From Powellomyces hirtus (taxonomy: Eukaryota > Chytridiomycota > Chytridiomycetes > Spizellomycetales > Powellomycetaceae), in NCBI GenBank assembly GCA_025526995.1, contig JAHLKG010000003.1, positions 186,001-250,000 of the forward strand: a stretch of 64,000 bases of DNA, read 5' to 3'. Positions 11,615 to 25,245 of this stretch are shown here, one piece after another (within the stretch, counting starts at the first letter, position 1; each line of letters begins with the position of its first letter). A model generated the notes under the pieces. The model saw only the letters and a list, made by a program, of their open reading frames with translations. It was not told the DNA's origin and searched no databases. The position numbers and the translations under genes were made by a program.

Positions 11615-12796
11615 ATGAAGGTCGCTATCCTTGCCGCATCCGCCGTCGCCCTCTTCCAGGGCGTCGCCGCCCACACCTACATTGACCATGTCATCCTCCC
11701 GGGAGGTGCAAAGTGCGATGGTGTCAAGCACAACGCCGGCTGGAACAACGGTCAGCGCAACTTCCCCGTCAAGGACCTCAAGTCCGCCGACATGATCTGC
11801 GGTGCCGCGCCCGTCGCTGCCGCTGCCGCTACCTGCCCCATTGCCGCTGGCGGCAAGGTGCAGCTCATCTGGGGCCACAACCAGGTCGGCGACGACATCA
11901 TCGACCTCTCCCACAAGGGCCCTTGCAACATCTACCTGGCCCCCGCCAAGGCCGACAACTCTGTCCCCACCGGCGCCGTCTGGTTCAAGATCCAGGAGCA
12001 GGGTTTCAACGCCGCTACCAACAAGTGGTGCGTCGAGGACCTTGTCGCCAACAAGGGTGTCATGGACGTGACCATCCCGGCCAACCTCCCCGCTGGCGAC
12101 TACGTGATGCGTGCCGAGATCGCCGCGCTCCACGAGTCCGACACCCTCTTCACCCAGAACCCCGCTCGCGGAATCCAGATGTACAACTTCTGCACCCAAT
12201 TCAAGGTGTCGGGCGGTGGCAACGCCAACTTCTCCCCCAAGATTGACGCTCAGACCTTCCTGACTGACTCCACCCCCGGTGTCAACTTTAACTACTACGG
12301 CTCTCCCGCTTCCTCCTTCCCCAAGGCCTTTGGTGGTCCCATCGCTACCGCCTCCGGGTCTGCTCCTGCTCCCGCTCCTGCTCCTGCTCCTGCTCCTGTT
12401 CCCGCTCCCGCTCCTCCCTCCATCCCCAAGCCGCAGCCTCCTACTCAGCCCGCCCCCGTTCCCAAGCCGCAGCCCCCTACTCAGCCCGCACCTGTCCCCA
12501 AGCCGCAGCCTCCCACACAGCCCGCTCCCGTTCCCAAGCCGCAGCCTCCCACGCAGCCTGCCCCTGTCCCAGCCCCGGCACCCGCCCCCGCCCCCGGCGG
12601 CTCCAACAAGTGCTCTGTCCTTCAGCCTGCCTGCTGGGCCGCCCAGCGCAAGTGCTGGGACGACTTCAACACCTGCATCAAGAACAAGGGCTGGACCACC
12701 GAGTGCCAGAACATGCAGCAGGTGTGCGGACAGAAGGGCGACGAATGCAACAAGATCAAGTGCTCGTGGACCCGCCGATCCATCCGCTCCGCGTAA
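11615..12796 (+). CDS. Secreted AA9 lytic polysaccharide monooxygenase with C-terminal 8-Cys domain
   Basis: AA9 enzymes are secreted copper enzymes that cleave cellulose and related glucans oxidatively. This is an intron-less 393-aa ORF. Residues 1-19 are a signal peptide (MKVAILAASAVALFQGVAA), so cleavage leaves His20 as the copper-binding N-terminal His. The histidine brace is completed by His100 (in DLSHKGP), with axial Tyr190 and second-sphere His173 and Gln188 (IQMY). Conserved parts also include VWFKI and the ANLPAGDYVMRAEIAALH strand, where the family's usual RHE reads RAE. A Pro/Ala linker (about 248-340) with four 12-residue repeats leads to a 50-residue domain with eight cysteines that is not a CBM1. 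Codon use is strongly C-ending, as in highly expressed genes, and a TATA box lies upstream. The substrate is inferred from the family. Confidence 0.93.
   Translation: MKVAILAASAVALFQGVAAHTYIDHVILPGGAKCDGVKHNAGWNNGQRNFPVKDLKSADMICGAAPVAAAAATCPIAAGGKVQLIWGHNQVGDDIIDLSHKGPCNIYLAPAKADNSVPTGAVWFKIQEQGFNAATNKWCVEDLVANKGVMDVTIPANLPAGDYVMRAEIAALHESDTLFTQNPARGIQMYNFCTQFKVSGGGNANFSPKIDAQTFLTDSTPGVNFNYYGSPASSFPKAFGGPIATASGSAPAPAPAPAPAPVPAPAPPSIPKPQPPTQPAPVPKPQPPTQPAPVPKPQPPTQPAPVPKPQPPTQPAPVPAPAPAPAPGGSNKCSVLQPACWAAQRKCWDDFNTCIKNKGWTTECQNMQQVCGQKGDECNKIKCSWTRRSIRSA
12425..12568 (+). repeat. Four 36-bp tandem repeats encoding the LPMO linker
   Basis: Four adjacent 36-bp units each encode P-K-P-Q-P-P-T-Q-P-A-P-V. 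The differences between units are almost all at third codon positions, so the peptide repeat is under selection for its composition. It lies in the linker between the catalytic and Cys-rich domains. Confidence 0.9.
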
Positions 12797-22892: not shown

Positions 22893-22900
22893 TATAAAAA
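22893..22900 (+). promoter_or_regulatory. TATA box of the TctC-GPCR gene
   Basis: TATAAAAA lies 148 bp upstream of the ATG at 23041 and is followed by an A/C-rich leader without an in-frame ATG. It is the best core promoter candidate for the receptor gene. Confidence 0.5.
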
Positions 22901-23040: not shown

Positions 23041-25245
23041 ATGCATATTCCCTCCATCACTCTCGCGCTTCTCACTGCCGTCTCCACCGCGCAAGCAGCA
23101 TGGCCGTACGGCAAGTTTCAGTACACCGTGCCCTTTGTCAAGGGCGGCGGGTCCGCGTCCATTGCTGAACTCCAAGGCCCCGCTATACCCGGCGCGAAAC
23201 TCGTCTTCAATCCTGCCAACAGCGGTGCGGATGCGTGGTCCAAGATGAAGAACGACCCCAAAGATGGATCAGTCGTCACCTTGATCAACCTTCCCCACAT
23301 TTATATCCAGCCCCATGTCGCCGACCTGAATGCGAACTATACCGCGGACGACATGGAGATTGCCTACATGCACACATATACCCCGCTAGTGCTCCTTGTC
23401 CCTGCCACCTCCAGCATCAAATCCTGGGACGACTTTGTTATTGCCTGCAAGACTTCCGAGGTTACCGTCTCGGGAGCTGGAACAGGCACGGTCTTTGAAC
23501 TCGGATCCACCCGCCTTTCCCAACTGGCGCGCATCCCGTTCCGGTACGAGTCTCCCGGAACCGGTGCCAATACCGCCATTAATGCCATGTTGGCCGGCAA
23601 CTACACCGCCGCCTGGACCACCACTCCCGTCGTCTTTAACCGCCCTGACCTCCGAGTGCTCGCTATCGCCTCCGAATTCGAATTCCCGCAAATCGTTGCC
23701 CCCACCTTCAAGACCCTCGGCATCAACTACGTTGACGGCATCTACCGCGGTATCGGTCTCCCCAAGGGCACCCCAGCCAACATCATGAAAGATGTGTCCG
23801 ACGCTTTCAACGCCCTCAACCGTAACCTCAGCTTCATTGCCAATGTCCAGCAGTCCGGTGCGGTCCAGATCTTTATGGAGTACAACAGCCCTTCCTTGAA
23901 AAAGTTCACGAGCACCTACCGCAAGAGCGTCGAGCAGACCATGTTCCCCACTGACCCTATCTCGCGCGGATCCATCTATGCCATGCTGTTCCTCGCTGCC
24001 CTGGGTCTCTTCCTCACCTTGGTCTCCGCCGCGTTCGCTGCCATCTACCGCAACACCCCCGTCATCAAGGGGTCCAGCTACTTTTTCAATAACATCATCC
24101 TCCTCGGTATCACCATGGTGTACCTCTCCATGATCGTGTCATCTCTCCAGCAACCTCTGAGCGGCGTCACCGGACGGACCCTCACTATGGGTTGCACCGC
24201 TATGCCCTGGTTGCTCGGTCTTGGATTCGACATCACCTTTTCCGCAATCATTGTCAAATCGTACCGTCTCTACCGTCTATTCCTGTTCAGCGCGTCCAGC
24301 GTCATCCAGTTCGATGCTAGCAACCTCGCGATCTTGAAATGGGTCGGTGCCATCTGCGGAACCAATGCCGTCGTCTACGCCGCCTGGACCATTCACGATC
24401 CCTTGACCGCCACCATGACCAGTCTCGACGGCGAAGAGTCCTTCTACTACGCGTGCCAGTCCAACCACACCTCCGTTTACCTCGGCATCGTGTTGGCGCT
24501 CAAATACGTCATGCTAATTGTCTGCATGTTCTTCACTATCAAACTCCGCGAACTCAACGCTGTCCTCAACGAAAGCAAAGCCATTGCCGCCGCCACTTTT
24601 TCCACTACTTTTATCCTCACCATCTGTCTCGGCGTCTACGCCCTCGTCAACAACTTCCAAGGCCGCTTCATCATCGCCACGGGTGGCATCTTCATTGGAA
24701 CAACAATGTGTCTCGCCGCCCTCTTTGCCCCCAAAATCGCCATCGTCGTCTTCTCACCCGACTCCAACACCTTCGAACACGTTAAACGTCTCATGAAGGG
24801 CTCCGAATTCCGATCCTCTGATGAAAAGTCTGGCCGCTCCGGTGGAAACGTCCTCAGCGGAACACTCGGCTCCTTGGGCTCAATGGGCTCAATGGGCGCT
24901 ATCGGCTCAATGGGCTCCATGGGCGCCATCTCCTCGCCCACCAGCCCCAAAGCCCGCCGTGCGTCCATGGACCCCAATGGTGTGCCCGTCGGTACCCCCA
25001 TCTATGTCCAGGAAGGCAAGCAAATTGCTCGTGAACACCGCGACCGCATCAGTGCATACACCCGTGTCATCCTCAACACCGCTGCCAATGGCCGCATTTC
25101 GGAATTCCATGGCCACATCGCCCACCTCACGGCGTTCGCGAACCGTATCAAGATCATGAACAACAACAAGGCAAGAGCGCAATCCCTGCCTGACAACTCG
25201 CTCGCGGTCAAGTCGAAACCCATCCCCGAAGATGAGGACGTTTAA
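23041..25245 (+). CDS. TctC/Bug-type solute-binding domain fused to a class C GPCR core
   Basis: An intron-less 734-aa receptor. Residues 1-19 are a signal peptide. Residues 20 to about 300 read like the bacterial TctC (Bug) periplasmic-binding family: WPYGKFQYTVPFVKGGGSAS, PKDGSVVTLIN, YTPLVLLVPATSSIKSWDDF, VTVSGAGTGTVFELGSTRLS, PFRYESPGTGANTAINAMLA, RGIGLPKGTPANI. Residues 310-570 hold seven membrane helices with class C (GABA-B/mGlu) marks: KGSSYFFNNIILLG before TM2, a cysteine at TM3 (TMGCTAMPWLLGLGFDITFS) followed by IIVKSYRLYRLF, LRELNAVLNESKAIAAA ahead of TM6, and FAPKIAIV at the end of TM7. The 160-residue cytosolic tail has an S/G/M repeat and basic stretches. Class C receptors normally carry a type I Venus-flytrap domain, so the ectodomain is swapped. 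Ligand inferred: a carboxylate or other small organic molecule. Codon use matches neighbouring genes. Confidence 0.9.
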   Translation: MHIPSITLALLTAVSTAQAAWPYGKFQYTVPFVKGGGSASIAELQGPAIPGAKLVFNPANSGADAWSKMKNDPKDGSVVTLINLPHIYIQPHVADLNANYTADDMEIAYMHTYTPLVLLVPATSSIKSWDDFVIACKTSEVTVSGAGTGTVFELGSTRLSQLARIPFRYESPGTGANTAINAMLAGNYTAAWTTTPVVFNRPDLRVLAIASEFEFPQIVAPTFKTLGINYVDGIYRGIGLPKGTPANIMKDVSDAFNALNRNLSFIANVQQSGAVQIFMEYNSPSLKKFTSTYRKSVEQTMFPTDPISRGSIYAMLFLAALGLFLTLVSAAFAAIYRNTPVIKGSSYFFNNIILLGITMVYLSMIVSSLQQPLSGVTGRTLTMGCTAMPWLLGLGFDITFSAIIVKSYRLYRLFLFSASSVIQFDASNLAILKWVGAICGTNAVVYAAWTIHDPLTATMTSLDGEESFYYACQSNHTSVYLGIVLALKYVMLIVCMFFTIKLRELNAVLNESKAIAAATFSTTFILTICLGVYALVNNFQGRFIIATGGIFIGTTMCLAALFAPKIAIVVFSPDSNTFEHVKRLMKGSEFRSSDEKSGRSGGNVLSGTLGSLGSMGSMGAIGSMGSMGAISSPTSPKARRASMDPNGVPVGTPIYVQEGKQIAREHRDRISAYTRVILNTAANGRISEFHGHIAHLTAFANRIKIMNNNKARAQSLPDNSLAVKSKPIPEDEDV

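Follow-up and report, generated by a model that had tools for sequence, protein, structure and literature searches.

A single gene in the 64-kb window analysed here (the whole stretch of DNA under study, 64,000 nucleotides of contig JAHLKG010000003.1) joins a TctC/Bug solute-binding domain to the seven-transmembrane (7TM) core of a class C receptor. It is likely that this is a single-gene class C G protein-coupled receptor (GPCR), probably of a flagellated fungus, whose sensor is a type II binding protein that came from bacteria. Its frame of 734 codons runs without an internal stop from the ATG at 23041 to the TAA at 25243-25245 on the (+) strand. Within the translation, the Pfam profile for TctC (PF03401) matches residues 67-273 with 54.2 bits (cut-off 27), and that for 7tm_3 (PF00003) matches residues 313-565 with 136.4 bits (cut-off 33.5); these scores, together with matches to proteins in the PDB, rule out chance as the source of the architecture. 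A preliminary description of this DNA had proposed the uninterrupted frame and the union of a class C 7TM core with a TctC/Bug type II domain, and had suggested comparing the N-terminal part and the region 310-570 with these two profiles. Both proposals are borne out, and the boundaries given there (residues 20-300 and 310-570, with a tail of about 160 residues) are correct to within a few residues. The gene is laid out as follows.

22893..22899, + strand: candidate TATA box (TATAAAA), some 140 bases before the ATG, chosen by eye on its consensus only
23041..23097, + strand: signal-peptide-like start, residues 1-19, with a hydrophobic core and then AQA before AWP, as read from the sequence
23098..23955, + strand: TctC/Bug type II solute-binding ectodomain, residues 20-305
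23131..23157, + strand: first ligand loop, residues 31-39 (PFVKGGGSA), the role of the motif being taken from PMC5812351
23965..24747, + strand: class C seven-helix core, approximately residues 309-569, from the PF00003 match, the GABA-B2 match and hydrophobic segments
24748..25242, + strand: cytosolic tail, residues 570-734, with a Gly/Ser/Met-rich repeat followed by predicted helices at 654-682 and 686-714

Secretion of the receptor and its membrane topology are presumed. The signal-peptide-like region has a mean predicted local distance difference test (pLDDT) score of 61 and 59 in its first two ten-residue blocks, while the two predicted helices of the tail, which is about 165 residues long, have block means of approximately 55-84. 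There are no Rfam matches in the window at the gathering threshold.

The first 307 residues match 4x9t, 25hk and Bug27, and BugD weakly (0.0058), when PDB sequences are searched with phmmer, and the TctC proteins there align over residues 16-277. Structure models of the ectodomain and receptor, which used alignments of 58 (A3) and 40 (A4) of 80 fetched loci (a family missing from the VIA list was not counted as excluded), predict at high confidence that the ectodomain adopts the type II fold of TctC proteins. The last helix of the domain, 284-301, is confident and the following helix begins at 307, so that an undetected intron or a boundary between two genes could hardly fit there. It is hardly credible that the gene is an assembly chimera, a pseudogene or two adjoining genes read as one: an indel-broken 7TM-coding fragment on another contig does reveal that a piece of the gene was copied, but all 734 codons are open, and we reject a gene-model chimera on the continuity of helices at the junction and on the third-position GC content (GC3) and codon usage common to both halves. 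The fragment (contig C19, approximately 593067-593219; locus L142, 4368-4520) is 93% identical over 157 columns to positions 24634-24789 of the window. It comprises the coding part of the last membrane segments and has a G-alpha match, at C19:595063, some 2 kb away.

For the 7TM half, the best match among PDB sequences is GABA-B2 (5.1e-20), followed by CaSR, mGlu and GABA-B1 chains, with GABA-B2 chains aligning at most over residues 313-618. Residues 317 to 561 contain seven hydrophobic segments. By alignment with GABA-B2, C385 and C472 are the cysteine pair of transmembrane helix (TM) 3 and extracellular loop 2, with a predicted disulfide, and the GABA-B2 alignments have similar residues at K406, at NESK (510) and at FAPK (562). 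Only one cysteine (C136) precedes TM1, and so the nine-cysteine domain, a feature of mGlu/CaSR-type receptors that GABA-B does without, is absent. The ANF (type I) flytrap, which is usual but not universal in class C GPCRs, is likewise not in the ectodomain of this receptor, where TctC stands in its place.

In the genome, which totals 29.3 Mb over 60 contigs, chitin synthase is matched 33 times, radial-spoke proteins 7 times (at two places) and G-alpha 18 times; four of 14 bacterial control genomes also match chitin synthase and none of the 14 matches radial-spoke proteins. Collectively, these matches point to a flagellated fungus with G-protein signalling, and coupling of the receptor itself to a G protein is predicted. 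Two of the G-alpha matches (C16:102679-104014 and C52:5485-6820) have the same scores and spacing, as a duplicated segment or redundant assembly would produce. The receptor is the single TctC match in the whole genome, in which TctA has 0 matches. A component of a tripartite tricarboxylate transporter (TTT) is rejected because the genome has no TctA match, and contamination is rejected on the neighbouring frames and on that same lack. Manual grouping assigns the 24 matches of 7tm_3 to 13 loci, this receptor included, of which one on contig C5 is below the cut-off.

Bacterial relatives of the ectodomain are readily found. Matches occur in 73 records of a plasmid collection, the best at 34.3% identity, and a scan of a species-genome collection, seeded by an alignment of five closer sequences (A2), gave as top relative, among the best 80 of 171, an alphaproteobacterial sequence from a metagenome-assembled genome (L020; 39% identity). 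These 80 loci were chosen for their resemblance to the query and its relatives and form a biased sample; most of the other TctC rows in the trees were taken from five bacterial genomes that also supplied loci of this set. One of the bacterial genomes (G002, 3.4 Mb, the source of L029, Pusillimonas) contains 52 TctC matches, and Bug proteins are described as overrepresented in some betaproteobacteria (PMC5812351). Viral contigs scanned with the whole protein yielded one pattern match and no relative. In a large tree of 115 rows, with an antisense row (L075_1) and four identical rows left out, the fungal row sits with 84 bacterial rows at a Shimodaira-Hasegawa-like approximate likelihood ratio of 99. 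A careful tree of 55 of the 115 rows, picked by hand, separates 39 subfamily rows and the fungal row from 15 other TctC rows with support of 100/99. The affinity of the ectodomain to one bacterial TctC subfamily is well supported by these sequence trees, and this much of the acquisition from bacteria envisaged in the preliminary description stands. The tree does not settle a nested versus a sister placement, the best position, beside L020, L021 and L023, having support of 47/72 only.

Several points weigh against a bacterial-derived, ligand-binding sensor. The approximately unbiased test does not reject a tree in which the 39 bacterial rows form one group (p 0.412), and the fungal end branch of the 55-row tree is long (3.07). 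The former result would suit an old eukaryotic TctC inherited by vertical descent, but the well-supported grouping with one TctC subfamily apart from the 15 other rows, the lone TctC match in the genome and the fact that the best identity, 39%, is to an alphaproteobacterial sequence make such descent very improbable in comparison with bacterial transfer. The seven helices of the core are modelled at low confidence, since the alignment used was without 7TM relatives, and a nearby TIM21 frame has a lower GC3 (0.595). The remaining points lie in the binding loops. Of the 80 columns in which conservation among 58 bacterial relatives reaches 85% or more, the fungal domain keeps 48, with F32, G35-G36, S38, N83-L84-P85-H86, Q90-P91 and R236-G237 retained, while residues that are close to invariant in the bacterial rows are exchanged: E37 for G (E in 58 of 58), D39 for A (D in 54 of 58), R43 for E (R in 58 of 58), N152 for F (N in 56 of 58), T176 for A (T in 57 of 58) and Y194 for T (Y in 56 of 58). 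K34 occupies a position that is P, A or Y in all 58. The first loop thus reads PFVKGGGSA, compared with mostly PFxxGGESD in the bacterial subfamily, and departs from the TctC loop motif P-F-x-A-G-G-x-x-D at its Ala and Asp positions. That motif is almost ubiquitous in TctC/Bug proteins without strictly defining them, and in BugD first-loop residues, including the Asp, hold water molecules bridging to the carboxylate of the ligand (PMC5812351). Given these replacements, the binding loops are remodelled and TctC-type ligand binding is not assured, which weakens the inference of a carboxylate receptor.

The main rival explanation is that the ectodomain has lost its ability to bind a small ligand, and that the protein is a partner subunit, as GABA-B2 is to GABA-B1, or a receptor for some other cue. 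The GABA-B2 subunit does not bind GABA, and no PDB chain resembles the 7TM core more closely than GABA-B2; the loss of E37, D39, N152, T176 and Y194, the long branch and the presence of 12 other 7tm_3 loci (11 above the cut-off, grouped manually) with which the receptor could pair fit the same explanation. However, the scaffold and the cleft-side residues G35-G36, S38, NLPH 83-86 and R236-G237 are retained, the fold is predicted at high confidence, and Lys34 could hold an anion directly. We regard this rival as unlikely, albeit a good deal less so than vertical descent.

The receptor is likely to be one for a small acid, which would be of the hydroxy-acid, dicarboxylate or sulfonate type. Clues to the ligand class come from gene neighbourhoods at 84 bacterial loci (the 80 and four plasmid loci), where clusters of like frames were counted and the neighbouring families named from tested member proteins; the loci are short and all counts are therefore lower bounds. 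The GD_AH/UxaA family lies near TctC in at least 33 of the 84, a family resembling isocitrate/isopropylmalate/tartrate dehydrogenases in at least 23, an enolase-superfamily (MR_MLE) dehydratase-like family in at least 9 and Ldh_2 in at least 6. In L020, L021, L023 and L076, GD_AH stands in a row with 2-hydroxyacid dehydrogenase and/or Ldh_2 (L020 and L021 were profile-tested; the Ldh_2 of L020 and the content of L023 and L076 come from frame reading), and these rows resemble the SuyAB/SlcC/ComC clusters presented in PMC12421959. SlcHFG are TTT systems for sulfolactate (review PMC5812351), and it is in adjoining GD_AH/UxaA and 2-hydroxyacid dehydrogenase and/or Ldh_2 genes that the nearest bacterial relatives are like them, a likeness of gene context. 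The Ldh_2 protein of L021 reaches 188.4 of the 500 bits needed for L-sulfolactate dehydrogenase (NF040650) and 189.8 of 356 for ureidoglycolate dehydrogenase, GD_AH proteins reach 134-139 of 731 for galactarate dehydratase (TIGR03248), and a neighbour in L026, cut by the end of the locus, reaches 459.8 of 470.4 for tartrate dehydrogenase. With equivalog cut-offs unreached and loop residues that differ, sulfolactate is rejected as a firm ligand. A fuller account, in which a proteobacterial TctC whose kin lie near sulfolactate or hydroxy-acid catabolism was transferred and became the GPCR sensor of an acidic or sulfonated algal, plant or bacterial metabolite, with the 7TM hung on lobe 1, is speculative and, taken whole, rather doubtful.

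In such a receptor, a small and probably acidic metabolite would bind between the two lobes of the ectodomain. Lobe closure would then be relayed to the 7TM core by a linker some 5-10 residues long that, like that of GABA-B, has no cysteine-rich domain, and the core would signal to a G protein of the heterotrimeric class. Lobe 1 is where a type II fold normally ends and is thus the expected point of attachment of the 7TM; with attachment there instead of at lobe 2 the coupling geometry would have to differ from that of ANF-type receptors. A role in zoospore chemotaxis is possible. In one study of diatom-infecting chytrids, a mixture of carbohydrates and extracts of the host drew the greatest zoospore response, and its main text does not contain the term 'organic acid' (PMC5334607).

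Type I ectodomains are common in this genome and TctC is seen in this receptor alone. The ectodomain scan covered 20 open stretches from the 12 other class C loci, L142 being left out. ANF_receptor is above its cut-off at L132, L134, L136, L138 and L139 and just under it at L130 (24.9 of 25.4), L135 has a sub-threshold Peripla_BP_4 match only, and L131, L133 and L137 have no ectodomain match, which means little as exons were scanned separately. Upstream of the 7TM piece of L140 (C21:351600-357000) is Ephrin_rec_like (24.5 of 23.1 bits), a domain described in glutamate-type receptors of close animal relatives (PMC12716839), and at L141 (C5:853900-859000), where the 7tm_3 matches are below the cut-off, Bmp (31.4 of 24.1 bits) lies upstream. 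Elsewhere in the window, an AA9 lytic polysaccharide monooxygenase (11615-12796, + strand; 153.5 bits) carries Pro/Ala-rich repeats and a Cys-containing end.

Fungal class C receptors with BMP, LysR_substrate, PBP_like_2, OpuAC and SBP_bac_1 domains have been described (Krishnan et al. 2012, PMC3251606), and almost half of the class C receptors of gut fungi have a type II binding-protein ectodomain, with ANF in none (Seppala et al. 2016, PMC5168858). The present protein, a type II periplasmic binding protein (PBP) fused to 7tm_3, belongs among these receptors; the suggestion in the preliminary description that the architecture is of a new kind is thus not supported as stated, and in view of the two publications we reject the idea that no earlier receptor carried a type II binding domain of bacterial type. 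TctC is absent from the main texts of 2025 surveys of 1357 fungal species (PMC12842992) and of animal relatives (PMC12716839), and we found no report of a class C GPCR joined to a TctC or tripartite tricarboxylate domain in the main text of the open-access literature, so that a domain table elsewhere may list it. Within the literature searched, the TctC version of the fungal type II-ectodomain receptor appears to be new. It adds TctC/Bug, which serves bacterial uptake of carboxylates and, in some systems, a sulfonate, to the binding domains found joined to class C receptors in fungi and, alongside the LysR_substrate, OpuAC and SBP_bac_1 versions, suggests that the 7TM core tolerates flytraps differing in fold and attachment point. 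Such natural chimeras make the coupling of ligand closure to the 7TM testable, and the protein provides a specific basis for screening the ligands of a fungal receptor.

With TctC/Bug proteins such as Bug27, TphC, MatC and 4X9T, the ectodomain has profile and fold in common; it differs from them in being joined to a receptor, in a genome with no TctA match, and in its altered loop motif. GABA-B receptors resemble it in the 7TM core, closest to GABA-B2 among PDB chains, and in a junction between sensor and 7TM without a cysteine-rich domain, whereas their flytrap is of the ANF type I. The Allomyces and Spizellomyces receptors of Krishnan et al. (PMC3251606) likewise combine a 7tm_3 core with an N-terminal PBP-clan domain in zoosporic fungi, although TctC is named 0 times in the main text. 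Akin to our receptor, those of gut fungi (PMC5168858) carry a type II solute-binding ectodomain on a class C core, but theirs were likened to sugar-uptake binding proteins, while the sensor here is of the TctC/Bug family.
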